DNA of 64,000 nucleotides from Liolophura sinensis (lineage: Eukaryota; Mollusca; Polyplacophora; Chitonida; Chitonidae). Below, in pieces: positions 4,812-43,189 of the stretch; within the stretch, counting starts at the first letter, position 1, and every line of letters begins with the position of its first letter. Where the stretch lies: contig NC_088301.1 in assembly GCF_032854445.1 (NCBI RefSeq), positions 54,237,187-54,301,186 of the forward strand. The letters run 5' to 3'. Below the pieces are notes generated by a model that saw nothing but the letters and a program-made list of their open reading frames with translations, was not told the origin of the DNA and ran no database searches. A program made the translations under genes and the position numbers.

Positions 4812-7800
4812 TTAACTCTCCTCTTCTCCTCCCTTGACACTGTTCCCAGGGAGCTGTCCCAGCAAGTCAGCCCATATGCCTCTTTCCAGCCGAACAGTTT
4901 CTGGGGAAAGCATTCCACCAGTTATCTTACTTCCATCACTCTGCCAACACATGGAAAATTTTCAGGTGTTTAATTTACTGGCCATTGAAATTAAGCAACT
5001 TCAAAATCCTGATATTAGCTTTTCGACTAGATATTCAACAGCTATATAAACCCAAAACAAGAGCAAAAGCAAAGATATATTAAAATTAAAATCTTTTTAT
5101 GATGTTGTAAATTTGACCAATGGTTTATGGAAATTTTAGAAAACTCCATCCACTGGTTCTTTACAAGATGTTTCAAGGTGTTGCTAGAAATCTATTAAGG
5201 CTACCATCTAAGTGATCTAGAAAAACAAACTTCAAAACCATTCAAGATAATATGCATGAGAATTTGGCTGCCGAATTTCAAACAGCTGGGGTTTGCAGTT
5301 TTCATATTAATTTATTTGATATTCAAGTATATTTCACTTGTACGACTACATCGTGGTGGGAGGCAAGCAAATCAGAGCCTGAGGAAAACTCAAGACCATC
5401 TGAAGGTTGCTGACAGACCTTCCTGCATACAGGTATAACCTGACAGGAAGCCAGCATGTGACAGATGAACTCACAGTAACCACACTGGTGAGAGGCTCCT
5501 AGGTCACTGTGCTATGCTAGCAGTGGTTAACCACTAAGCCAGGGTGGCTGCTGCTTGAACAATCTGTTTCAATTTTAACCACTCACATGCAAGTGATTTC
5601 TGTGACCCCAGAACGCATCTTTTTCTACTGACGTCATGCAAACCTGTTTTGTCCCCTAGGTCTGTTTCCGCCTCTCTTCAGAGATATAAACTATATTATT
5701 TGGTATCTTTTTCTTTTAAGACTTAAAACATTTCAGCACCCTGTACATTTGTTTACATTCAGAGTCTTACAGGTATGTAAATAATGAGCAATAATCATTA
5801 TTTTCACATCATTTCGCAAAATTTTCATTTTTACCCCGGTAAAAACTTTCTTTAGCAAATAAAAGATTCTTCATAAAAAAATGGACTCACCAAATGTAGA
5901 TCACTGACCATCAAAGTGAGAGCATTTGGCTGAAACGACTTCGCTGTTTCTGAACAAATAAACGGTTTCTTTTGCTGCCTCCAAATCTTTGCTGAAGGCT
6001 ATGTATTCAAAGTTTTCCTGAAGTAGGAACAGAAAATAATTTTTTTTACACATAATATGCAACTTAAAAGACTTGTGCAAATGCTTTTTAACAAATAAAT
6101 AAATCACAAATACAGGCAAATGTTTTTAATTTTTACTTCACATCCTCAGTGATGTCTGTACAAATGCATAGATATCCCTAGATGATAGATGCAGGGTGGC
6201 TAACAGATGATGGCTGGAGGATTGCTAAGGGATGCAGCCATCATCCATGCAATAAATTGGCACTCCAACTCCACCCAGAACATAATTCAGAAAATTAATT
6301 TGATTCGGGTTAATTCGTTTTCCATATTTTATGTACCATCCCATGTTAAAATTAGCAGGCTGACCAATGTCATATCGGAAAGGGAGGTCATTCAGTGGCC
6401 GCAACATTGTATCTCAAAATTTGCGTATCAGCTGAAAGTGTTGCTGACAATGCTCTGGTTAAATATTTAAAACATATTTTAAAAGTTATTGTATATGCAC
6501 TACATGTATATTTAATGTTATGTTCAAATGATAACTGATTTCTGCTTATTTCAGCTGCTTTTTAATTTAAAATGGAGCTGAAATCTGGTTTTGTATTTTG
6601 GACAAAATGTTTAATTTATTTGAGCCTTAAAGGAAACCTCTAAGAAAACATCAACTCAACTCTGACGACATTTTCCCCATATCATGCCTTACCTTACCTC
6701 ATAACAACTGATAAGATAAAACAAGGATTTAAAACTATTTGCCACAAATGCATAATCGTAATCTGATTTAAGATCATGGTCCAATTTAGAACTACATGTA
6801 TCTTCTTTAACAGGAAACAGCAAATAATAATTAGTTCAATAATAATGTCGTGTATGTATGTTTAAAGGTTGGACGTGGGCTTCACTTACCCCAGCAGCTT
6901 TAAGGATATCTCGTAGAGCAGGTGACACCTGCAGCACCCTCTGAGCCCTGGTAATTGCTACATACAGAAGATTCTTCTCATCCTCAGAAGGGGTGTATAA
7001 CGAATGCACTATAAACAGAAAATCAAGGCAGTAATATTTAAGCTTGTTATGTTCAGAGGTTACTGTTTCTTAACACAATGTCAAACAGAAATAAAATATA
7101 GCTTGCCATGTTCAAATTGCCACATCATAGTAGATTGAAGTCGTTTGAGAATGAGGCTTGTGGCCCCTCAATCTCAGACAGACATGTTGTCAAATATAGT
7201 CCAGTGGAAAACTCCGGCCTTCGGTGATCTGAACATGGCAAACTACGTTTTATTTCTGAAATAATGGCAGGTCCAGTCACCTAAAATCTCTGGAAATTTC
7301 CACCAACTAACTGTGAATTGTAGTACATAAAAATTATTGTGAAAAATCATGTGAAGTTATGAAATAGATGTACTGTTAATCATATTTCACAGAATATTTC
7401 ACCATCATAGTAAACACTAGGGCAACTAATTTGTGATAAAGTCCCTGAAATTATTTGTGATTTACTGTAAGCCCAGTATCAACTCTAGTGCCATTTTCTT
7501 ATCGTTGTCATTGACGATCAAATGAATACTTTGAAATCACAACATTTCAACTCTCGAAACGTAACAAGCCATGGCGTTTTGAGAAAATTATATAGACTGC
7601 CAGCTTTGCGTGGTTCATTTCTGAATTTCAGCGTACACCTATACAAAACAACAGAAAACCTAACATAACCATCATAAAATCATGGTTTACAAATTTACAG
7701 CTCCAGTTCTAAGACTAAACTAAAAGGTCAAAAGTCATCTCTAAAAGTAGGATTTCTCTCTAGGCTGTGGATCTTCTAACTGACACAGTCAAACTTACTA

Positions 7801-10800
7801 GAGCCATCGATCAGTTGTTGCACGGACGTCAGACAGGTTATGAAGTCAATGCCTAACCTCACTGCTGGAAATTCTAAACCCTTAGCCTTGTGTGCGGTGG
7901 TGAAGATAAAATCTAACACAGAAAAATGAAGAAACAACAAAAAAAAAGAATGTACTACATGATATGAGTGATTAACACCTAGGACCAGATGATGAACACA
8001 TAGGCCCGAGTGATAAACACCTGGGATCAAGTTAGGTTTAATGTTAACATGAAAATCAGTTCACAGATATAGCACAAGATACTAAACAAGCAAGTTTGCC
8101 CCAATATGAAAATAACTTTAATAACATCATAATAATTGTCTGTACATCTAGCAAACATGCCCATATAATGCTTTTCATCTGTTCACATATTCAGACAGTA
8201 GGTTTACAGGTGTGGTGTACCTCAGTACTTACCAGCTTTTGCCTCATCTGACACATGTCTCCACTGAATGGCATTAATACATGTGGGTAAATTGTGTTGG
8301 TAGCATCGGACAATCTTGACTTTGCCACTTAGCTCCAGGTCCATTGTATCCTTGGCATATTTCTCCAATGCTTCAATGGAACCAAGGTGTTTGAGAAGCT
8401 TGCTAGTTATAGTTCTCCCTGCTGTGAAGTCAAAATATAGCACACCAATTAAATATGTTATTTATTTATTTGAGTACTGTTTAAAGCCATATTTAATCTT
8501 AATCATATATAAAGACTGGGTGTACACCTGGCCTAGTTTTCAACTTGTGGAAGATTTAACAATAACGGTAACAGTTTTTTTGCCACGATACAAACTTAGA
8601 TCCATATAATGTATAAAACGAAACTCATTACCTTTCCTTCTTTCTTGATCAGACAGAGTTAGGGTATATATCTCTTGTATCATTGAAAATCCAAAGTTTT
8701 GAAAGCCCTAAAAAGTAAAACAAACCAAAATGATTTTCAGTAACTAGAAGATTGCATCAAGAATTTCCATAAAAGAAAATATGCAGGTTGCTGGTAGACC
8801 TTCCCACATACACCCGGAGAAGAAGCCAGACAAACTGTCTGTCAAAGGCCAATTCTGAACCTGAACCTCATGTGTTGTACCCATTCTGAACCTGAACCTC
8901 ATGTGTTGTACCCATTCTGAACCTGAACCTCATGTGTTGTACCAATTCTGGACCTGAACCTCATGTGTTGTACCCATTCTGAACCTGAACCTCATGTGTT
9001 GCACCAATTCTGAACCTGAACCTCATGTGTTGTACCAATTCTGAACCTGAACCTCGTGTGTTGTACCCATTCTGAAGCTGAACCTCATGTGTTGTACCAA
9101 TTCTGAAGCTGAACCTCATGTGTTGTACCCATTCTGAACCTGAACCTCGTGTGTTGTACCAATTCTGGACCTGAACCTCATGTGTTGTACCCATTCTGAA
9201 CCTGAACCTCATGTGTTGTACCAATTCTGGACCTGAACCTCATGTGTTGTACCCATTCTGAACCTGAACCTCATGTGTTGTACCCATTCTGAACCTGAAC
9301 CTCATATGCTGTACCCATTCTGAACCTGAACCTCATGTGTTGTATCAATTCTGGACCTGAACCTCATGTGTTGTACCCATTCTGAACCTGAACCTCATGT
9401 GTTGTACCCATTCTGAAGCTGAACCTCATGTGTTGTACCCATTCTGAAGCTGAACCTCATGTGTTGTACCAATTCTGAACCTGAACCTCATGTGTTGTAC
9501 CAATTCTGAACCTGAACCTCATGTGTTGTACCCATTCTGGACCTGAACCTCATGTGTTGTACCCATTCTGAACCTGAACCTCGTATGTTGCACCAATTTT
9601 GAACCTGACCCTCATGTGTTGTACCAATTCTGGACCTGAAACTCAAGTGTTGTACCAATTCGGAACCTGAACCTCATGTGTTGTACCCATTCTGAACCTG
9701 AACTTCATGTGTTGTATCCATTCTGAACCTGAACCTCATGTGTTGTACCCATTCTGGACCTGAACCTCATGTGTTGTACCAATTTCATTTCAAGCACATT
9801 TAACCAGTAGACCACGGCTCACTCCCCACCTGTTTTAATGGACAGCTTGTGGACTGTCATATTATTCTATTTTTCATGATTCACAAAGGCTGTTTATGAA
9901 TCATTTGTGAAGATTTATCTGTCTTTCCATTTGCTTGTCTATGACAGTGACATGAACAGGAACCTTTTTTTTTTTTCACGCTCAGTCTTCTATTTCCCAT
10001 ATTTTAAAACTGTCTGTTTTTGCATATCCATATTTTAGTATGAGCTGCATCTCTCTAAACAGCTTTGTATATTAAGACAAAAAAAAAAAAAAAACAAAAA
10101 AAAACAACTTAGGATCTCTTTCTATGTACATGTTATATTTAAAAAAAAATATGATCTGAAGTCTGTCAGTAATAGGATCTTCACATGACCAGTAATGAAC
10201 TCACATTCAGTTTCTGAAATAACAAACCTAAGTATACAAGAGAAATATATGTAGACAGCCAAATCTCTGATGATACCAATCACATTGCCACCATTTTCAA
10301 TCTCCTGCTTTTAGTACTTGGGCCCAGCCTATTTCAATTACTTGGAGCATCCCATTAATCCATAGCCCATGGACACAATGGCTCCTCCCAGAACAGTGCT
10401 TGCATAACTTACCCCGATTATATGTATTTTGTGCTCCTTTTCAGAATAGCAGCATTTTTTCACTGCTTCCGAGAACAACCCAAAATTTATGCGATTAATA
10501 ATACAAATTTGACCCACAGCATCATTGCACACGGAGCCTGAAAAAATTCAAAAATGAAATCACTTACACTATTGACCAAATTTTTTTTCAGGTAATGTTA
10601 CGGGTAAAAGGTAAAAAGAAAAGTTTTATGTAACAAAAACAAAGATGCTTTCTTGGAAAAAGTTGTAACAAAATGTTTATCATTTTATAGTAAATTGTGA
10701 AAACAAAAAAATTAATACATAGAGAATGATACAAAGAAATCAAAGTTTTCTGGCTTCACCTGGTGCATTACTTCCTACAAGGCATCTTCCTTCATTCTTT

Positions 10801-13800
10801 AAAAATTCTAGGCAAGTGGAAGCTACTCCTGCAATTTCAGCTCCAAAACGGAATGACTACAAATGAGAATATACAGTGTTATTTTGTTTACCAGTAATTA
10901 ATTTCACAACAAAATCTTAATACTACTACAATGTGGTGTATCAACAAGACATTTTCATCAAACATCACAAATTTTCAAACAATTTCCATATTTTTCATGA
11001 TATTTGACTTCAACAACTGCAAATTCCTCCTAAAAGTTTATGCACAGCAGAAATATAATAGAAATACAGATATTACAAAATCAGGACAGTTTGACCTTAC
11101 ATAGTAAAAGATAACTGACAGAACATGTGGATTGGGATGTTTGATCCATCAATATAAATCAAGTTATTTCTAGGCAATACAGCTAAAGAAAGGGTCTGAC
11201 CTGTGTAAGGTAGAAGACACGTGAAGCCTGGACTGAGGCAAGAGCATTCACCGCTCCACGGAAAGAGTAGATCTGCTGGTGAGGATCTCCTACCAGAATC
11301 TTACACTGATCTTGGCTCAGCAGAATGTCTGCGACAGCTGCGTCATAACAATGAGAACATTTTTCATTTAATGGTTAGTCTGGTATAGAGCAAAATATAT
11401 AACAACTAATAATCACTAACTAGTTCCTACCTACCTGGGTGATGCCATTTTGCCATGTAAGTTATCCAACATAACATTATATGCACCATGCATGTAACTC
11501 TGCGTACTAAATAACAAATGAGGTCTATGTCATCTGGCATGAAAACTTGATAAAGACAAATAGCCCATGCAAAAATTTCAGCTGAAATCAAGTAGTTCCA
11601 CCGATAAGTTTCACTAAATACACAAGTACATGTACCTACATATAGTTTAACTTGTCAGACCACAGTTGTTCAAAAGTCTATTAGCTCTTCAGTCCTATAT
11701 TAATTCACTCTGGACTTACATGTACATCACGTGAGATTTGTATTAGAATAACTTTTAATGCACTTTGGAACAGCCAGCCAATTTATAGTATATTACATCA
11801 TAAAGCCAAAATTCCCTAGCCCTATATCTCTGTCATTGTTGTCCAATTTATATCACTCTGATGGTAATAAAACAGAATGCTGAAATACTGAGTCAAAAGG
11901 TTGTGAGGTTGAACAAAAATGAATATTAAAATAGCACTGCAATCCGATACTTAGAATCCACACTAATAATCAAGAGCTGATAAGTATATTGGCGTCACAG
12001 CCAAATGTTTCACATGAAAGTTTCAATTCTAGTGGATGGCCAAGTCCAAATAAGCCTCTACAACATGGCTAGTCGGAGAGTATCATCTGTCAATGTCATA
12101 TCTGCAAAGCTGAATTCCACCCTCTCAGGTTTTGACCCTTCTCACTTCTTTTTTTTCCCTATGTATATATACATGTAATGGCAGACTTTATGTGCACTTT
12201 AACCACTACTACATCTTTCTCAACAAAAGATTCATGGCTTTTTTAACAGTGAATACACAAAGACATTTTGTTAACTTTTTCCAATATAAATGGTTTTCAT
12301 GCTTTTCACATATCTGTGGTTAAAAAAGCCTTCATAAATGAACCACTGGCTGCAGTTTTCAATGCTTAGGTAAATATCATGTGGCATAGAATGCCATTTA
12401 ACATTATACAGCAACATCAAAGCCTGAAATTCTCATACTGACATGCAAGTTAGGTGTACACTAGAAGTACATGTACCTGGTGTTAGATCCTGGGCCTCAT
12501 CAATCAGAATACAGTCAAAGTTTCTCAGCTTGGGATGTCTAAGTTGATACAGCTTCAGGTACCCGTCGTGTGAAATCTTCACCTCAGAGCATTTGATATC
12601 CTTCATCTTGTTCCACAGAAATTGAGCATCCACAACATAATTCTGCAATGTTAAATACCATATGGGGATATTAGTTATCTGATTATTTATACCAAGTGAG
12701 CATTTCATAACCCAAGTCTAGGATACATTGTTGCAATGCTTGCTTATACAGTTCTGGAGGCGTTATGCTCATAAGAGCTATTAAGAGAAGTCTAGCCAGA
12801 CACGTACAATGACTCTGCCACTCTCCCAAATTATCCCAACACCTGGGCATACTTCATGACAATGTGCTAATAAGACTGAGGAAGGGAAGGAAAAGTATTC
12901 AATTTGCAAGAACCACATGTACATTTGAGAAAAATGATGGAAATCATAACATACCTTCCTAAGATGTGGGCTAATGGGTGTCTTTAATCCCTGTTCTGAT
13001 AGCATATCAGCTGGGGTGTGATCAATGGTGATGTACTCATCAGCAGATGCCAGGAAAGTCCTTACAGTCTTCAGGACATGCTTAGAGCGAATGTACAAGT
13101 TCTCTCCCTTTCTTGGCGGTAAGATCTGAGCAACCTCATACACTTTCATATCACCTCCAAGCTTCTTAGCTGTGTTATATCTCCAAACAGATACAAAAAT
13201 AAGTATCTATGCATGTAGTCTGCTCATGTACAACCTTCTTTACACTAACCACCCTTAAATCACATCTTAATTCTGAAGATTATGAAATTTATACATTTAT
13301 TTATTTATTATTTGTTTGATTGTTGTTTTAAGGACATACTCAAGAATTTTCACTTATACGTAAACAATACTGGTCATAAGTTTTATAAGTGGAAGAAACC
13401 ACAGTACCTGGATTGAACTAGTGACCTTTAATAAATTAGCGAGGACCCTTCCTACATGTCATGTAAAGACATGCACTTGTTATGGGTGGAAGACAAGTGG
13501 TCTTAACTAATGTCTTTTTAAATCACAGGTGTTTCCAAGTATGATTTATGAGCTCACCTTCGTCCTACTGTTTCATAAGCTAAGGAATGCCCAGTTTTAC
13601 AACAGACATTGGGGGGAAATTTCTTGGCAGCATGAAACCTCATGGCCCTGCAAAATATCCATGAAATATGATAATGACAAGTTATTTACTTATCAAAAGA
13701 ACAAAATCTATTTCTTGTTTTCCATGACATGTTGTTTTTCATATTCGACACCTATTTTGCTAAAATAACTGCCCATCCTTTATATTTTTTGAAAATGATC

Positions 13801-16800
13801 TTCCACTTTATTATTTTTTCCTTATAATCCAATGAATATTGTAGAAAAAAATTTAGAACTCTTCAAGTGGCTCATTTTCACTCCAGAACTATTATACATT
13901 CTTGGAGAAAAGTCAAAATAGGAAATTACCTATGCTATGTTTACAAACCACTGCCTAGCCACTGAATTAAAGCTATTCAAGTACGGTATCAGAAATTATG
14001 CATACAGCTTGCTAACATAAAACTGGTCACAGGGAACCATTTCGAAATTGGGGAAAGAAAAAACTAACTTGTTGAAGACAACCAAGAGAAACCTCATGCT
14101 GGGTCTGATCTGTGTAAGTGCCAGTAGGGTGGAAGTCTTCCCTGTTCCTAGATAAAAAGAACAAAAACATCACTAATGACTGATTTTCTTTCTTCCACTG
14201 CACTTAAAGTCTTCACTTATATGAAAGGTAAGTCAAGAATGTGCTTGTGTACAAAATTGCCACAGAGCAGAATTTCTGAAGAAGCCAAATACTAAAAAAT
14301 CATCATAAAAGTAAAGCAAAACAATTTACCTTTCATATTCAGTCTTTAGCTGTAAGTGTTTTAAGTGGATAGATAACATTATTTATTTCATTTGATAGGT
14401 GTTTTATGCCGTGCTAAAGAACATTTCACTTATAAGATGGCGGCCAGCATTATGGTAGGAGGAAATTGGGCAAAGCCCGGGGGAAACCCACGACCATCTG
14501 CACGACCCATCATCTCGGAGACCTTCCCAAGTAGAGGCGGAGAGGAAGCCAGCATGAGCTGGACTTAAAGTCACAATGACCGCATTGGTGAGAGGCTCCT
14601 AAATCATTGTGCTGTTCTGGCATGCTAACCACTTCAGCTGAGGAGGCCCCCGGCTAGATAACAGAGCTAGTATCTACGTCGAAATGTTGCTAAAGAATAA
14701 ACAAGTTGTGAATCAAATAATTATGCATGGTTTTAAATCATGTTTACTGTAGACTCCTATGTATGTGTATAACAAGCTAAAAGTGACATACCTGCAAAAG
14801 CTACAATTTTAACAACTTCTCCATGCCTGATTTCATAGTTGCAAATTCGTAGCTGTTCGTTTGTGAGGCACAAATTTGAATCTCCTAATCTGTAGAAGAA
14901 TAAATTATACCAAATTATTCTGCTTTCATGTTTCAATTAATTGTACATGCGAGGCTGCTTAGACAACTAATACATACATTTACTCCTGAGAGAACATGAG
15001 CTTTCCAGTTCTCATTTCTAACCATCTACTGACCAGAAAAAAATGCAAGAAGAAATGATAGAGAGTTTGCATGATCTCACCGAAGATGCTGTTCCTTCAA
15101 ATTTCTTCTCAGCGAAGACTGGACATTGCCTTGGTTCCCTGCTGAGTTCTCGAATAAGTATAGCGCACAATACAGCCTGTAGTGCATTCTTGAGAAAATT
15201 AAAAAGAAAAGAAAAGAAAGTGTGAATATTAAAACTTTGGCATAATTACATGTGCTAGATACAGATGGTGTATATTCAGCATTTTGATCTGTACTTGTAT
15301 GTTCATAACTTTCATATCTTTTTCCGGATGCTGAGAATGGTTGACTGATATAAAAAATGGCTGTTAACAAAATTTGGTTTGCCTTCGATGTGACAGGTGA
15401 TTTGTGATATGTCTTTATTATTCATTGATAATAAGGTGACATAAAGTCAGAACTACTGTAGAATTAAGGAAACATTATGACGACAGCACACATGAAAAGG
15501 CTGAGTTAGTTAATGGAAGAGTACAGATCTGCATGCTTGAAAACTAAGCTGGGAAGAATGAGACATATCTTACATCCAAATTACAAAGTACAGTGACACT
15601 GGTCTAAGCAGATACAAGATTAAGCAGTGTAGGGTAGTGACAGAAAGGGTGAAAAAACTTTACTACCATCTGTGTTGCTGCTAAACTTCTGCAACCTATC
15701 ACAGCACTAAGGTTAATTATAAAAAAAAAATTGAAGCCTAAAATGTTGTCAATTAACTTCCAGATTTGCACCATCTTCATGTACAGGGAAAACAATGGGT
15801 TTTACCATACTCACAGGAAACTATTTTCAAAACTATTCACAAGATGACATAAAGCAAATAAACTCCAAGATGACTGCAAAAATAAAAACTATTACCAGTA
15901 GGATATATACTATATACATAACTTTATACATCCAAAGCCTTCTTCAGATCATTGTTCACTTGGGACAACATTGCATATTTGCAAAGTCTGATAATCTTTT
16001 AAAGGTTCTGCTCAACTGCACAGAAGTTCTACATTTACCACAAAACAATGCTGTACTGGTATGGCTTAGTAAAGGTCTAACTAAATTATTTATCTGATAG
16101 TTGCCTAAAACTATATTCAAAAATTTTATGCTCGTACAACTGTAGTCTGTTATATGGATGGAACCGGAGTGCCCACGGTAACCACTGACCTTTGACAAGT
16201 TACCAATGAGCTTTCCAACATGTGACCTGCAGATAAGCAAACCATACTAATGCAAGACAAATGATGTTCAATCCAATTTAAATGGCTACAAAAGTGTCAC
16301 AATTTGAATGGTAACAAGAGCATGACTGACTTGTTGATTTCACCAAGCATGCCACGGCCACAAGGACAGCACATAAGGGCATGAGAATATACAAATTCCC
16401 TTTGCAATGCCAGGTAAGATCTTGCCCCCTTTGGTTCTCTGCCTGGATTTAAGGGTTGGAATACTACTGCAGATTTCAACAATAAAACAACATATAATTA
16501 CACAATTACACATAATTAATTATTATAGGCAAATAGTGAGAATTAGAGTAGGTGCATTACCCATTAAAAATCCCATTGCGTACTCGTAACTTGAATGCCA
16601 AAAAAAATGTTGCCAGGCAGTATAATGCTTCCAGAATCATAATGGATGAGCACTTAGACTGTATGCTGAGTAAACTGGTCAAGAGATTGGACACATCCTT
16701 CACAGACTTTGCGATGACCACAAGAATAGCCAACACACATGCAGGATGGGGTTCCTGAATCAAATATAAAAACATATAATCTTTAACTCATGACTGTTAA

Positions 16801-19800
16801 TATCTAATTACCGCAGTCATCATGTAGATGCAATAAGATATCCACTACACAATAAAGTCATGCTGAAGATAAAAAGTTTCAATTTAGAGTTATTTGACTC
16901 TTGAGTATAACTTTAGATCAGCAATTAGAACACAGTAGAATGGATATCATTTACTCAGAGTATAAATGATACAGTATAGTTTTTAGTGAGAGCACATAGG
17001 AGCTATGAAGATAGGCTGTACATAGACTGATTTAACTTTCAAAATACAAGTACATGTACTTTGTACATGCTCTATGCAAATCTTACACCCCTACAGACTT
17101 CATATTGATTATTTAATACACAATCAGACTTGAGATAGCATTATTCTGTGAATTCAAAAAAGTTTATATATTCAGGCATTTTGTAAATATGGGTACAAAT
17201 AATGCACCAAATGCATTCACACTTTTTTTCTTGGCTCCTGACAGACATATTACTTACAGAAACAATATAAACTGGAGCCATTTATATATGCCAGTGTAAT
17301 GTGCTTTTTGTTCAAACAATACAATGGAACCCTCTTCCGTTTTAATGTTTAATTCTTCAACAAACTAAGATACCTTTATGTAGGTCATACTTCACTTACA
17401 AGATGGCAGCACAAATATTCACCCAAAGAGAGCTTAAAATATTAGCCATATCAGCGAAAGGCATGGGATCACCAGTCATGAAGACCACCTCACTTGAGCT
17501 ATGAGTGCTACAACATTTTATTGACACCCCAGGCAACATACCTGCAAACACTATCAAAACATTGTGAAAGTCAAGGCTTTGTTCATAACTCACTCCAAAT
17601 AGGAAACAATCCATGAATCTCTCATTCATCAAGGCAATGGCCCAATGGTATTTTGGGGTTTTCTGAAGGCATTCCAGAAGTCTATCAGAGTTCAACTGCT
17701 TGTGGTTCATCATGTGTCTAAAAACAAAACAAATCCCATTTAAGTGAAATGCTTAATAGTTAGAAAAGTCACAGGTGTTTTAAATGTACATTATTTTTCT
17801 GGAATTGGAGAGGATGACCCAGTGAAGATGCCAAAGAAAAGTACTGCACATTGTGAAGAATTTGACAATCATTCAATTAAGAAACAATCATATATGACAA
17901 TGATAAGCTAGTTGTAGAATATTTTGCATCCAACGTTATAAATGAAAAAGGTTTATCGATCTTCAGGTAAATCCAACTGTTTTCCTTCATAGCTGAGAAT
18001 GGTCTCAAGGCAGTCTGACCCTCAAAAGAGATGATCAAGCTGCAAAATTTGCAACGTCCATTAATATTGTTTTGAAATATCGTAAACAAACTTTTAAACA
18101 CATGCAGTATATGCATCCCTCTTAACTAGGAAAATTTGCAACAGCATTTAAGATACTGACCTATATTCACTTTTGATGGTAGCTACGAAAGCTCTTTTTA
18201 TAGCCACAATTTTACTTACTGATTGTGATTAAAGTTTTATCATGTTCCACATCCTGTTTCATCGCCAACATATTTAATATCAACACAACAGCACATTTAA
18301 TCTTACTCTTTAATCTCAAATAAACATACTGTGTATCACTTCATATAGCAAACATGTAATACAGAACTTCTACAGTACATGTATGTACTTATACCTTATT
18401 AACCCTGTGAGAAAGTCATTTTTCTCTGCCATTCCATTTTCCATTAGGAGTTCAATCATCTCACTACGTACAGAACCATAGCTTTTTGATAGCTGAAAAT
18501 ACTTCTTCTTCCAATGCAAAAACTACAATGCAAATAAATTAATAATAAGACAAGATACATGTAAGAACTATGTTGCTGTGTCCTGTAATGATATAAATGC
18601 AACAGAACCACTGCAGTCTTCTAATATTTCAAGTTTTCAAAATGGATATAAATCTATATCCACAACTAATAAACATTTTCATTTTAATTTACAACATTTT
18701 ACTCCTTACATGTATGTAACATGTTTAGCCTATATATTTTTAGAAGAACACAAATACAAAAGAAAAATTTCTTCAAGCCAAACCCCCAACACTTTAGATT
18801 CCAAATTTAAGTCTTAAAACCTACTCTCTCAACCATAAAATACATGTAGTACCTGGGGGTTTGATATGATTTGGTTCCAAGCTTTGCAAACTCTGTTTGC
18901 ATTCAGATACAAGTCTTGAACTGGCAGGAAGCAGAAAATATTTTCCATGACTTCAGCTGGTAAAAGTTCAAACGTGTTGGTTTTATCTACAGGATCACAT
19001 GGATATCTCCCGGAGCCCAAGAGTCCATACCTGTCTACCACATCTAGGAGATCATTGTCATTCATCTCGCTACTGCTGAAGGCATCTGAATCATCATCTG
19101 CATGCAACATTGTGGTGCTTTCAGTTTGAAGCACAGGCAGAATGCCATGGCTTTTAACATATGGAGTACAACTGCCAAGGACATTCCTAGACACTTTTTT
19201 TTTATCAGAGACTGAATCAGGACAGCACTCCACAACGTAAATTGAACTTTTTCCAACCTTTTTTAGAGGTGAAAACATTTTTGATGGTGTTCGCTGACTG
19301 CTCTGTGACGTAGATGGTGACATCTCCTGTGTGGAAAGCTCTGGTGTCCAAGCTCTCTCTTCACTGCCACTGGGGTTGCTTTGACTGTTTGTCATTTCCA
19401 TGTCACTTAATGCAGTTTGGCTAGTTTCTTTCTGGCAATTTTCACTTGAGAAATAATTGGTTATGAGGTTCATCTGAGTGGGTCTACACTTAGAGCAACG
19501 CTTGGGGCTAGGAGTGTTTTTTTTTTTGGCAGGTGATCTCTCTTTACTCTCAAAGGAGCAAGTAGGTGAAGGCATGTTTCCAGTATAAAGTTTCTTACTG
19601 GATACAAATTCATTAAGCCTACACTCTGTGCTCTCTTTCACATATCTAGGCCTGAGACCCTGATGCGGGTCTCGCGAACTCCGAACAACTGCTAATGGTG
19701 TAGTCAATGCTGCAACACCTGTTGGAGATTTGCTGTACTTCAAGCAGTCAGTTGTATCTAGGTGAATCTTTATCTTTTTGCAGCAAGGTCCCTTTGGTTC

Positions 19801-20031
19801 CTCCACACGACTAGTCATGTCAGGTGCTACCTTACTACCTGGGAGACAAAGCTGTTTTCTGTATGCCTCATCATCTTTAATGGTGCTGCTATAACTAGGG
19901 CTACCGACGTGGTTCTCACACCAAGGTTTCTCGTTCAAGTTGTTGTTGTTAAAACTTTCACGTTGTAAACACAGTGGGTTGCAATCTTTATCCGAATTTG
20001 AGCTTGTCGCTTTATGTGGATGCTCAGACAT
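4812..20031 (-). CDS. FBH1: F-box DNA helicase 1, 20 coding exons, 1174 aa
   Basis: UvrD/SF1A 3'-5' helicase and F-box subunit of an SCF ubiquitin ligase; in the nucleus the family unwinds DNA at stalled forks and displaces RAD51. Coding exons, in order: 20031-18853, 18522-18395, 17717-17594, 16754-16561, 15188-15081, 14889-14792, 14147-14069, 13647-13558, 13180-12955, 12642-12477, 11337-11201, 10856-10760, 10537-10413, 8707-8632, 8418-8233, 7912-7799, 7008-6890, 6017-5909, 5627-5587, 4940-4812. They sum to 3525 nt with every phase matching. Visible motifs: basic NLS-like stretch about 166-181, PIP-like MNLITNYF 187-194, F-box from about 354, Walker A AGTGKTS 610-616, Walker B DEAQD 790-794, [12 protein letters not shown] 814-825, QSFRFG 843-848, HKAKGLEF 1012-1019, YVAITRA 1058-1064. 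The ATG at 20031 (G at -3) is preferred over an in-frame ATG at 20097, which would add 22 residues in a poor context. Exon 19 (41 nt) is the least certain. Confidence 0.93.
5300..5555 (-). repeat. tRNA-derived SINE copy (AAAT-tail family)
   Basis: Reverse-strand, diverged copy of the element seen more completely at 33447-33729. Shared landmarks are the TTTATTTGAT tail, the blocks matching the GTGGGAGG and GAAGCCAGCATG segments, and the GTGAGAGGCTCCTAGGTCA block before the tRNA-like head. It lies in the last FBH1 intron, between the 41-nt exon and the terminal exon. Confidence 0.7.
8778..8850 (-). repeat. SINE fragment abutting a minisatellite
   Basis: The short block containing GGTTGCTGGTAGACCTTCC and GAAGCCAGA matches the middle of the AAAT-tail SINE in reverse orientation. 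The 31-bp minisatellite begins directly after it, so the array may have grown from the edge of the element. Confidence 0.5.
8849..9783. repeat. 31-bp minisatellite, about 30 copies
   Basis: Head-to-tail array of a 31-bp unit; its core is TGAACCTGAACCTCATGTG followed by TTGTACC. Copies differ by single substitutions, for example CCCATT/CCAATT and GAACC/GGACC/GAAGC, and are sometimes arranged in higher-order alternation. It lies in the FBH1 intron between exons 13 and 14. The open frame through it on the minus strand is a by-product of the periodicity. Confidence 0.95.
13285..13500 (-). repeat. Diverged SINE-like copy
   Basis: Begins with TTTATTTATTTATTATTTG and a block resembling the reverse complement of the SINE 3' end (GTTTTAAGGACATACTCAAG, then CACTTAT). 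The rest has diverged from the other copies and may be a separate subfamily. It lies in the FBH1 intron between exons 8 and 9. Confidence 0.5.
14370..14652 (-). repeat. tRNA-derived SINE copy (AAAT-tail family), near full length
   Basis: Reverse-strand copy in the FBH1 intron between exons 6 and 7. It reads TTATTTATTTCATTTGATAG, then GATGGCGGCCAGCATTATGG, GGAAACCCACGACCATCTG and GAAGCCAGCATGAGCTGGAC, and ends in GAGAGGCTCCTAAATCATTG and a tRNA-like head. Block order matches the copy at 33447-33729. Confidence 0.8.
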
Positions 20032-20589
20032 GACGCTTGTCTTTGTTGCTGACGGTGGCTGGCTACTCAACAGGAAGGCAACGCATAGCAGATACACATA
20101 TGTTCCTCTTGTCTCTTAGGTTAAGGTCTTGTCTTCCGTTTTCGTTTTCGCAGTTGGCATCTTATCACTGTCTCCAACAGCAACGAAAAAATCAAACATT
20201 TATCTTAATTAAAGTTAACAGGTTCACTGTAGAAAAATTAACATCTTTACAATACTATAATCGATGGCAATTAAGTGTAAGTGAGAGGAAATTATGTGAA
20301 TTGTCTACTTTGAATGTAGTTATTAATGGCTTAAGGGTCTTATTTGAATCTCAGCTTGCGCGGGGTTAGTCGCTGGCTGACTGATGTGCTCATATAGGAA
20401 GGATTATGAATCGGAAATAGACGGTTGCATCAATCGCCACCGTAGTTTTTCTTCAGTGAAAAGTTGACAGACCTTCTCTGAATTAGATCCATAAACTGTC
20501 ATCCTGGTAGCATAGTCTGCGAAGTTTAAATTAGTGTACATTACAAATACAAGCAAAAATCTCACTATGCCCTACCACACTGCATAATA
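20032..20589. promoter_or_regulatory. Probable bidirectional promoter of FBH1 and ANKRD16
   Basis: The 558 bp between the two divergent start codons must contain both 5' UTRs and both core promoters, unless an upstream non-coding exon exists. No TATA box is obvious. A small CpG-containing block (TTGCGCGGGG, about 20355-20365) lies between the genes. Promoter function is inferred from gene orientation and spacing, not from a recognised element. Confidence 0.6.
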
Positions 20590-34341
<13,752 letters not shown>

Positions 34342-36375: not shown

Positions 36376-37043
36376 AGACCTTTACCATTTGGCTAGTTAC
36401 TGACAAACTTTACCAATTGGCAAGTTACTGACGAACTTTACCGATTGGCAAGTTACTGACGAACTTTACCATTTGGCAAGTTACTGACGAACTTTACCAA
36501 CTGGCATGTTACAGACAAACTTCACCATTTGGCATGTTACTGACGAACTTTTCCGATTGGCAAGTCACTGACAAACTTTACCATTTGGCAAGTTAATGAC
36601 AAACTTTACCATTTGGCAAGTTACTGACGAACTTTACCATTTGGCATGTTACAGACAAACTTCACCGTTTGGCAAGTTACTGATGAACTTTACCGATTGG
36701 CAAGTTACAGACAAACTTTACCAATTGGCAAGTTACTGACGAACTTTACCGATTGGCAAGTTACTGACAAACTTTACCATTTGGCAAGTTACTGACAAAC
36801 TTTACCAACTGGCATGTTACTGACAAACTTTACCAACTGGCATGTTACAGACAAACTTCACCGTTTGGCAAGTTACTGATGAACTTTACCGATTGGCAAG
36901 TTACAGACTAACTTTACCATTTGGCATGTTACTGACGAACTTTACCATTTGGCATGTTACTGACAAACTTTACCATTTGGCAAGTTACTGATAAACTTTA
37001 CCGATTGGCAAGTTACAGACAAACTTTACCATTTGGCATGTTA
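36376..37043. repeat. 28-bp minisatellite, about 24 copies
   Basis: Unit GACGAACTTTACCATTTGGC followed by AAGTTACT. Recurrent variants are GACAAAC/GACGAAC, CCATTTGG/CCGATTGG/CCAACTGG and AAGTTACT/ATGTTACA; they appear in repeated combinations, so larger blocks have been duplicated. It lies between the convergent genes ANKRD16 and TAFAZZIN. Confidence 0.95.
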
Positions 37044-37138
37044 CATGAACAAAATTTTTTCGGCTGGAACCGTATGTCATGCTCTGAGTAAATTTTCAAA
37101 ACGTGCACATGTACCTGCATTACATACATTTACATCAG

Positions 37139-38714: not shown

Positions 38715-41700
38715 TCAACTATTCCAGGCAGCATGAATTTGTTCTGCCTGTACCCTGAGAACTCTCAATTCCTCTTGAATGCAATCTGTGATGAACTTCC
38801 GTATTTCCCTCTGAAATAGAACATGAAACTGTCACACAGATGGTTTACTTTCTCAAAAATACATGGATATTTAATATTTCCATCAAAGTCAATGCAACCA
38901 TAATTTATAATCTTCAAAATAAATGTATACAAACACATATCAATCCTGTGGTGGGAATTATGCTCCATATATGCTGGTAGTGTTAAACACAATGGCACCA
39001 CACATTTTCATAGACTGAGAATTTAATGTACGAATGGCTATTTTCCATTGCTCAACCAGACGAATCAAATTTAATACATCTTTCGCAACCGTTTTAACCA
39101 ATCACTACCTTATGGCCACCAAGCAGTGCCTAGTACCTAAGAGAAAAGGAAGCTGGGGAACCTTAACATTCTCTGTCCAGATCGATAAACCTCACATGTG
39201 CATTTGATGGTCCCAGGATTTAAATGTAAGACATGCACAGTTTTTTCTTACTGAGAATAGATCCTAAACTGTACATTTGTTTAAAACTCGTAGATATACA
39301 ATGATATACAATGATACACTGCTCACTGTAGCTTATACTAAGCCATCACACAAACAGTAAAAGAGAGCATACAAGAAGATTCTTGATTATTAAATACATA
39401 TGTTTGTGGCTGACTTAAAATTCTATCTACACATTATAAAATATTCAGTTCAATATCTGTGAGACTTACTGGTGTTTTGTGAGCTTGTTTTAAATGACTG
39501 ATTTCCTCTGAGATCTCGATAGGCTCTCCAACAAGGACGGTCACTCTCTGTTAAATCAGATACAGATCTGTATATGGGATCTTACATCAACTTGTCTTGA
39601 ACATGCATGCAATTTTGTCCAAAGAACAACTTTAAGATTAGAGCTTACTTATTAATTTAAAAATTAAAAACATCTCCCTGAATATTGGGAAACATTAGTC
39701 AACACAATGACCTTCACAAATACTGAATTCTAATCTGTTAATACATGTACATACAAATATACACTGCATTAATATCTAACTGTCCATCATACCTTTCTTA
39801 TCCTGGGTATGTAAGGCTCTCTGTTCGGCAGAATATCATCAATACCTATAACATACCATAATTTATATTAAAAAAATATAATTTATTCTTGGAAGTACCA
39901 TTCCAGTCAAACACATTTTCTTCATTCTCCTCTTCATTCCATTGGTGTAGAAATCCCTCTATTCTTTGTTGTTTTTGCTCACACGATGATCTTGCTCACA
40001 ACAAAGCCATGGTCATTCCATCATTTATTTATGTAACTAAAAGATTTATACATGTACTTTGTGACTAAGACATGTATTTTCACATATTCAAGACTGCAGA
40101 CATTTGCTGTTACACTCATGCCATCACACTTTACTCTCAGACACGGTGGATGTAAACATGAATAACATTGGAAGTTAATACAAAACTCCATGTTTTCAAA
40201 TATCTGAATGTTTGCGGTCTTGAATATGTGAAAATACAAGTGTCAACTGAGTATTTGGCCCAATGTTACTCATTCCCCTAAACCTTCCTGTGGTATCTTT
40301 CACCTGATTGTCTGCTTACCATGGCATCATGCGAGTGAAGTGCTCCGAATATGTGGCCTGGAAAATATTAATGACTGCTAGTTGGCTGCACTGAAGAATT
40401 AATACTGCATTGGAACCCACCAAATATCAATTCCTATTAGAATATTATCTGGAGAATGTTAGCAATGTTCTTGGATATGTTTCTGACAATACTACACCAT
40501 ACTTACCCAAATGAAACATTGGTATGATGACTGGGGTGATGTTACATTCAGATATAAGTCGTCCTACTCCTGAAAGAGGAAATAAAACAGCTCTATAAAA
40601 CTTAAAGGGCTACAGGTACTTTAATTCAAAGAGAGACTGGGTGAAAATTTAACATAATATAAAGGGACACAAATGAAACAGAGCTAATGATAAGAATCCA
40701 CATACTAAGCTTCACTTCAATATGACAAATAGTTCTGGATAAGGTCAGAAAAAATGTTAAAAGTCCAAAACAGGACAACAGCTCTAATGCTGCTAAAAAT
40801 GGGCAAACACAATGAACTAGACGATGATCAGTAACTTGTCATATAACTTGTCAATAAAAAAAAATCAATGTGAAAAAGAAAAAAAAAAATCTGAGAAACT
40901 GATGTGTGTTGAGCCTATGTGATAAGAGGAATGACGAGGGGTAACCCTATAGTTTCCTCTGGTAGTGGTAAGGGATGGAATGAAAAATAATAAAATGGAT
41001 AACCATGACTGCACATACCCCATTTGAGTCGCAAATGTTCTTTGTTTAGGTTAACTCTCCCTGAAATAAATAAAGAGTACTTACACACTACTTTATTTAA
41101 TTTATTTTAAATTTTACAAAACCAATAAAAAATGGTATCGGTACTTTGAATTTCCACCTTTTCTATACATCTATACACTCTGAACATTCTGAAGGTATTG
41201 TCATCTAACTATCCAGTTAACTAATCTTCAGGTCCAGTCCTTTGAGAAATATTTACTTTCTAAAACTGTACAAACCTTTTAATCACTTCCAGTGAGACAA
41301 TACACATGTAGTTATCTCACCTTCTGGAAAAAAGTGCACCCAATGACCTTGTTTTAGCCTGTCTGACAGGAAGCCCATGCCTCGCTGATACACACCATCA
41401 CATCTACGAAGAGCTACACTCTTCCCAAGACTGAAAAACAAGGCGTGGATGTAATTGGTGTAGCATATGTTATGGGCTGCAGGTGACCATCGCATCAATT
41501 TGTGATTTACCAGATGCTTGCATTTCAACGTTCCTGTCAAATAAAATAAAAAACAGAGTAGTCCAAATACTTGAAAAGAGTATCCATGCATAGCAGAAAG
41601 TTGTGTTGTCTCAGGTATTTTACCTTTTTTACTTTTACTTCACAAACATCATGTAGAGAAGTGTTTACTACAATAAAAAACACTACAAAATGCAAATAGA

Positions 41701-43189
41701 TGTACGTATGTCACATAGATATGAAATAAAGACCTTTATGATAGTCCTAATTCATGACCTACCCCAAAGCAAAGGCTCATCAAAACAACTGTAATGGTTA
41801 GCAACTGTTATCAATCCTTGTTCTGGCAGACGATTTTCCAAAGCTTTATATAATAACTCCTTGTTGACTAAATTCAAAGAGTTGAATCCACCTGAAAGAC
41901 AATCACTTCATGTCTTCAAGAAAATACAGCTTGCAAAATGAAAAACAACATTATATATGTTGTAAATAGCTCAGCCCGATTTCTTCCATCATAATACTGG
42001 ACACTATTGTATAGCGGTAAGTGAAATATTCTTGAACCTGAAAGACAATCACTTTATGTCTTCAAGAAAACACAGCTTGCAAAATGAAAAACATTATTAT
42101 ATATGCTGTAAATAGCTCAGCCCGATTTCTTCCATCATAATACTGGAGACCATCGGTAAGTGAAATATTCTTGAGCACCACACAGCATAAAATACCAATC
42201 AAATAAATAAATAAGCATATTTATGTTTACAGGATTGCTAGCTTTAATACAAACAACCTACAGATCGCTGTTATTTTCTTATTTTATTGGAGTTTCACAT
42301 ACTTTATTTGTGTTTATTATTGACACCATATATTTGCATATCCTATCACTGAATCACCATGTAACGAATTTGTCATGCAAAGAACAATCAATTCAGTGCA
42401 GAAGACCAATGTATATGTGAATCGCTGCAGCGATGGGACCATTGTTGGGCCCCAACCAAGGGAGATAACCTACTCAGTAGACACATTTGACATCTGCAGG
42501 ATTCAAGAATATATCTGTACCCCACGTGACCCCATTGTTGCCCAATGAAAAGTGTATTTTGTCTCACGCATGATAAAGTGATATATTGGTACCATGCACC
42601 TTACAGCACATACATCTCATACATTCCCTTTACATCACTGCCACGTACGGCACAACTAGCAAATTTTTTAAAGAAATCTTGAACGTCACAGGGGTCACGG
42701 TGAGGAGGCAGGAAGTGATGTCAGACGACACAAACGCTCCGTTTCAACCTTTGTTTCTGATAATGACGATACTTGATACAAATCCATTCTCTTCATCTAA
42801 AGTATGAACAACAAGATTCTAACAAACACCGGAAACAATTTTATCAACGAATGTTAATTATTGTTCCGCGTGAGGATTTTAATGGTGAAGCTAAGCCTAC
42901 GGGCGTCACACAGGCTCCAAAGGTCAAGCTCTTCTAATGGTGGCAGTGATGTAAAGCGAAGGTAAAACCAACACATAGACGCCCTGGCGCTGCAAGGAGT
43001 ATGATACCGGTACATGTAATTTGTCTACTGCTCGGTCAGGCCTTCAAAAACACAGCCCATGGTACATTTACCTAACCAAAGTTTGCTGAGGAGACCCACT
43101 GTATAAACTGCAATTTTGCTGCCAATCATCCATAATCTTGTGCTATTTCGCGGATTTTGTATTTTCAGCCACCGTTGGTCATAACACAT
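38715..43189 (-). CDS. TAFAZZIN: Tafazzin, phospholipid-lysophospholipid transacylase, 8 coding exons, 263 aa
   Basis: Mitochondrial membrane-associated acyltransferase that remodels cardiolipin acyl chains (established family role). Coding exons, in order: 43189-43072, 41891-41763, 41533-41321, 41060-41019, 40569-40507, 39845-39793, 39547-39470, 38810-38715. They sum to 792 nt with all phases consistent, and the length equals the 262-aa functional human isoform within one residue. The HX4D acyltransferase motif is HYSCFD at 72-77. Other landmarks are LMRWSPAAHNICYT, CDGVYQRGM, HWVHFFPEG (147-154), VNLNKEHLRLKWG and GIDDILPNREPYIPRIRK. A hydrophobic N-terminal segment (about 20-39) matches the membrane anchor. 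There is no insert between LRR and CDGVYQ, so it corresponds to the human form lacking exon 5. An AATAAA lies 1 nt after the stop codon (38708-38713, minus strand). Confidence 0.95.
41891..42177. repeat. 146-bp tandem duplication in TAFAZZIN intron 1
   Basis: Two copies, 41891-42036 and 42037-42177, each starting CCTGAAAGACAATCACTT and ending GTAAGTGAAATATTCTTGA. They differ at few positions. Each copy holds a fragment of the AAAT-tail SINE (CATCATAATACTGG ... GTGAAATATTCTTG), and the second runs on to the AAATAAATAAAT tail near 42210. On the minus strand the first bases of each copy are a splice acceptor; copy 1 supplies the real acceptor of exon 2. Confidence 0.9.

Follow-up and report, generated by a model that had tools for sequence, protein, structure and literature searches.

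Is the head-to-head arrangement of FBH1 and ANKRD16, two genes for which common synteny is reported from human, mouse, birds and frog (PMC9465101), an inherited feature where it occurs in a mollusc, and if so, what has held the two genes together? To address this question we analyzed a 64-kb stretch of chiton DNA (positions 54,237,187-54,301,186 of C7; C-numbers are the contig labels of this analysis), which we call the window and to whose first letter all unprefixed positions refer. The genome comprises 609,464,459 bases in 632 contigs; the assembly was published under the name Liolophura japonica (PMC11068029) and the species was corrected to L. sinensis (PMC12441733).

The two genes are adjacent and divergent, with FBH1 on the minus strand starting at an ATG at 20031 and ANKRD16 on the plus strand starting at an ATG at 20590. 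The distance of 558 bp between start codons given in the initial annotation is exact. The features of the locus are collected in Table 1.

Table 1. Features of the FBH1-ANKRD16 locus of L. sinensis, in window positions
Feature	Position	Strand	Basis or remark
FBH1 (FBXO18) orthologue, multi-exon	4812-20031	-	9xzj_F in order over three frames; human FBH1 blocks; low end inferred by eye
FBH1 exon 1, F-box at its end (18853-18969)	18853-20031	-	Pfam F-box; human FBH1
Further FBH1 exons	near 18522-18385 and 17720-17590	-	placed by eye only
FBH1 Walker A block (GTGKTST)	14062-14154	-	9xzj_F; human FBH1
FBH1 block with DEAQD	12478-12678	-	9xzj_F; human FBH1
FBH1 block with [14 protein letters not shown]	11201-11338	-	67% identity to human, 46 aa
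FBH1 block with [10 protein letters not shown]	6890-6988	-	9xzj_F; human FBH1
Probable last FBH1 exon	4961-4812	-	stop adjoins 4812; human C-terminus likeness by eye only
Interval separating both ATGs	20032-20589		558 bp; candidate shared promoter; unique; CpG o/e 0.77
ANKRD16 exon 1	20590-20921	+	joined frame
ANKRD16 exon 2	22205-22327	+	joined frame; 69% identity to human, 49 aa (stretch runs past exon end)
ANKRD16 exon 3	22913-23010	+	joined frame
ANKRD16 exon 4	23330-23481	+	joined frame
ANKRD16 exon 5	26611-26769	+	joined frame
ANKRD16 exon 6	28138-28216	+	joined frame
ANKRD16 exon 7 including stop codon	34190-34341	+	joined frame

The minus-strand frame, which begins at its first ATG, carries within one gene an F-box (33.1 bits against the Pfam cut-off of 24.3) and, downstream of it, UvrD-type helicase blocks in the same order as in human 9xzj_F down to ~6890. 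The motifs GTGKTST, DEAQD and [14 protein letters not shown] are all intact; human FBH1 residues ~891-910 and 944-1010 have no counterpart placed in the chiton gene. Pfam UvrD matches on single FBH1 exons stayed below the cut-off, and a genome-wide search with PF00580 gave five matches, all on C3, the FBH1 locus being absent from the list because exon-wise searches miss FBH1. When a 209-aa FBH1 core was compared with the genome (which has N stretches), four of four matches fell at this locus and no second copy was found. On domain content and block order, we assign the frame as the orthologue of human FBH1.

Exon 1 of this gene also encodes MNLITNYF (19450-19473, minus strand), which resembles a PCNA-interacting box. 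The five C3 helicase matches form two clusters (C3:2205519-2403003 and C3:23467975-23586900) with open frames of 547 or 552 aa and perhaps represent a mobile element family. Minisatellites with units of ~31, 49, 25 and 28 bp occupy 8852-9784, 28380-29515, 32523-32952 and 36380-37057, in introns and downstream of the pair; PF06594 matches within FBH1 introns were discarded as an artefact of translating the 31-bp array at 8852-9784.

The seven exons of ANKRD16, joined across GT..AG introns, make one frame of 364 aa (20590-34341, plus strand). Against a provisional human ANKRD16 sequence, the product shows 48% identity over 332 aa (294 bits), colinear over the full length, and exceeds other ankyrin proteins: 12 other chiton ankyrin frames, taken from the stronger ankyrin matches in the genome, scored at most 112 bits against this human sequence and at most 127 bits against chiton ANKRD16. 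In a tree with the same 12 frames the clade of human and chiton ANKRD16 has support of 100/99, as one of two well-supported branches among 11 inner ones. In a reciprocal search with single exons the best ANKRD16 exon ranked below six ankyrin frames of generic type (the highest at 73.8 bits, 32%), and three ANKRD16 exons were among the matches listed (64, 47 and 50% identity). Judged by identity and tree, the chiton gene is the ANKRD16 orthologue, so that both gene identities proposed in the initial annotation hold for true orthologues.

The surroundings of the pair were compared with human 10p15-p13, where we take the GDI, KIN, PFKFB, CDC123 and MCM10 families to lie. On C7 a multi-exon GDI gene is found 617 kb from the pair, KIN 3.2 Mb and PFKFB 10.3 Mb away; CDC123 is off C7, its main match being on C9 and a weaker one on C11, and MCM10, for which a search of the genome gave no match, was dropped from the family count. 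Three of the four detected families (five were tried) have a C7 locus, with a chance of 0.0035, a value that was computed after seeing the result and that counts GDI by its multi-exon C7 locus, though an intronless C11 copy scores higher. It seems that the pair is on its ancestral chromosome, and that its neighbours have dispersed while FBH1 and ANKRD16 stay half a kilobase apart. Chiton genomes are reported to be heavily rearranged (PMC12005716).

The GDI frame on C11 (C11:16407187-16408494) and the CDC123 frame on C9 (C9:26697750-26698634) are uninterrupted and full-length, and these intronless copies look like processed gene copies. A tafazzin-like gene (38733-41883, minus strand) stands tail to tail with ANKRD16; six tblastn blocks are in order against human tafazzin (best E 6.8e-26), and its Pfam acyltransferase match is below the cut-off. 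Pfam searches of 12 frame stretches between 34.4 and 64 kb gave one weak match, also below the cut-off. This neighbour and GDI1, presumably at human Xq28 as is FAM50A, prompted a search for a wider block shared with Xq28, which was rejected: FAM50A is on C6, with no match in the window.

Elsewhere in the assembly, seven COX1 matches on C99 at ~15.5-kb spacing look like a mitochondrial concatemer, and COX1 of the mitochondrial contig gives a sensible translation when ATA is taken for Met and AGA/AGG for Ser. The order of mitochondrial genes and tRNAs, partly named by eye, is that of the chiton Katharina; ARAGORN listed 26 tRNAs in mitochondrial mode, some surely false, and no mitochondrial tRNA in bacterial mode.

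A search of the genome with the interval between the start codons, by a method that skips very common words, returned one match, the interval itself, which leaves its reading as a mobile repeat unsupported. Rfam gave no match over the 64-kb window, interval included, and none of 12 promoter motifs (ETS, NRF1, YY1, NFY, E2F, SP1, TATA, Inr, DRE, CRE, DPE and TCT) was found in the interval above the level of 300 shuffles. CpG o/e is 0.77 in the interval (0.82 in the bin 20001-20500) and 0.53 in ANKRD16 exon 1, against 0.24 in ANKRD16 exons 2-7 and, for FBH1, 0.33 in its first exon and 0.28 in those that follow; the CpG depletion that runs across both gene bodies thus lifts at the interval. Its value is reached by 1.8% of 558-bp segments inside the gene span (overlapping segments counted) and by 24% across the whole window.

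Most bins at ~4.0-42.5 kb (block 4001-42500, with FBH1, ANKRD16 and the tafazzin-like gene) are CpG-low, and the flanks are CpG-richer, with bins of 0.44-1.34. Two other peaks lie within the gene span, one at 28.5 kb (0.94) in the 49-bp tandem array and one at 25.0 kb (0.80; 25001-25500), which falls within an ANKRD16 intron and is without explanation.

A CpG profile such as that of the interval would be expected if gene bodies are methylated in the germline and a promoter lying between the two genes is not; the 24% of segments across the whole window and the two other peaks within the gene span speak against this reading. Given the spacing and this profile, a shared promoter is likely, and we infer that the interval is unmethylated, that its elements are shared and that both transcripts start within it.

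What was observed at the locus (the orthology of both genes, their orientation and spacing, the scattering of some human neighbours and the CpG profile) leads us to a reading that we consider probable. The divergent pair would go back to an ancestor shared by molluscs and vertebrates, and the interval would most likely be one open, CpG-unmethylated promoter region with two core promoters firing in opposite directions, which as the simplest model would hold for mouse and chiton alike. Breakage of the pair would strip one gene, or both, of promoter sequence, and the small gap would be a small target for breaks, so that the pair could have survived while its neighbours scattered. Counting against this reading are the lack of motif signal, the whole-window CpG figure, the positions of CDC123 and FAM50A off C7, the missing MCM10 match and the higher-scoring GDI copy on C11.

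A real rival, though in our judgement a much less likely one, is that the pair was inherited and its half-kilobase gap simply rarely broken, no shared element being under selection. In a crude exponential model, the 0.558-kb gap survives neutrally with a probability of 0.88-0.96, provided that genes separated by 20 kb remain adjacent with a probability of 0.01-0.20; a study of 64 genomes reports for Metazoa, unlike fungi, no special conservation of short-distance divergent pairs (PMC2871058). Since neutral survival is so high and a short-gap effect is not reported for Metazoa, strong selection is not needed for retention, and while the shared promoter of the initial annotation stands as likely, its further suggestions, that this promoter cannot easily be split and that the two genes may be co-expressed, are not supported. 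The lack of motif signal in the interval fits such inertia as well. Against it, the gap is short in both lineages, while divergent metazoan pairs have a mean gap of 34,912 bp (PMC2871058), which argues for some constraint; the same study finds convergent pairs much rarer among conserved pairs than divergent or co-directional ones, and the CpG profile fits an active promoter.

Selection for co-expression, which would tie the need for a replication/recombination helicase to that for a translation-fidelity factor, appears improbable to us. We know of no pathway shared by FBH1 and ANKRD16, and the literature on functional linkage of divergent pairs is mixed. Conserved divergent pairs of Metazoa are reported to be functionally related more often than poorly conserved ones (PMC2871058), and human divergent pairs to be alike in molecular function and cell component; in biological process, however, the latter are given as not closer than random (p = 0.06; PMC3815023). 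The stable expression reported for chicken Ankrd16 in heart, liver and spleen (PMC9514876) suggests a housekeeping role rather than coupling to S phase.

That the chiton lineage re-created the pair by chance is hardly credible. With the 28,010 genes of the assembly (PMC11068029), the probability that one named gene ends up as divergent 5′ neighbour of another is ~1.8e-5, or 1.8e-4 given the same chromosome. Among the 864 human divergent pairs (1,728 genes) reported in PMC3815023, 0.015 chance cases would be expected; the 64-genome study puts at 0.002-0.01 the chance that any pair found in one species turns up in a second with its orientation unchanged (PMC2871058). The claim that a vertebrate-like pair has been retained is supported, with the divergent layout described for mouse (PMC7901872) and with descent favored over chance.

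The chiton locus adds a mollusc to the record of a gene pair documented as bidirectional in mammals. A literature search over titles and text passages did not find the FBH1-ANKRD16 pair in any invertebrate, and a scan of bacterial and archaeal contigs for relatives gave 17 pattern matches, none confirmed.

It is the age of ANKRD16, more than the promoter, that lends the locus its interest. A 2020 review calls ANKRD16 vertebrate-specific (PMC7373986), and two others assign it to vertebrates with reference to Vo et al. 2018 (PMC10234152, PMC6918089). The sequence of the chiton gene, its place in the tree and its locus contradict the term vertebrate-specific, as they point to a mollusc orthologue at a conserved locus. 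Such locus-anchored evidence would make ANKRD16 at least as old as the mollusc-vertebrate ancestor.

We take the acceptor lysines for misactivated serine in human ANKRD16 to be 102, 135 and 165; in an alignment with the provisional human sequence, they correspond to R108, K141 and D171 of the chiton protein, which has extra lysines near the acceptor positions, at 107 and 173. We tentatively suggest, as an idea that may well fail, that serine proofreading of alanyl-tRNA synthetase via ANKRD16 did not arise with vertebrates but goes back to the bilaterian ancestor, the gene already standing head to head with FBH1. The chiton protein would have kept the scaffold, while of the three acceptor lysines a single one is exactly in place, and the capture chemistry would either have been tuned later or tolerate shifted lysines. 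The greater age of ANKRD16 would allow comparisons between species to address the origin of its serine capture, since the reported acceptor lysines have natural variants.

Three known systems invite comparison. The ancient metazoan microsyntenic pairs of Irimia et al. 2012, as described in PMC5429095, are alike in that two neighbours are kept adjacent across distant animals; those pairs are accounted for mostly by regulatory elements of developmental genes that lie inside their neighbours, whereas the chiton pair is tight, divergent and of housekeeping type. Closer is the bidirectional promoter of mouse Fbxo18/Ankrd16, with the same two genes, divergent and tightly spaced. In mouse, R-loop signal is reported on opposite strands and the start sites were measured to be 294 bases apart (PMC7901872), whereas the 558 bp of the chiton pair is a distance between start codons. 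Finally, vertebrate ANKRD16 is described as a co-editor of alanyl-tRNA synthetase (PMC7373986). The chiton protein is like it in being a full-length colinear ankyrin protein with the same gene neighbour. It appears to differ in that, in the alignment used, the three acceptor lysines face one lysine, one arginine and one aspartate.
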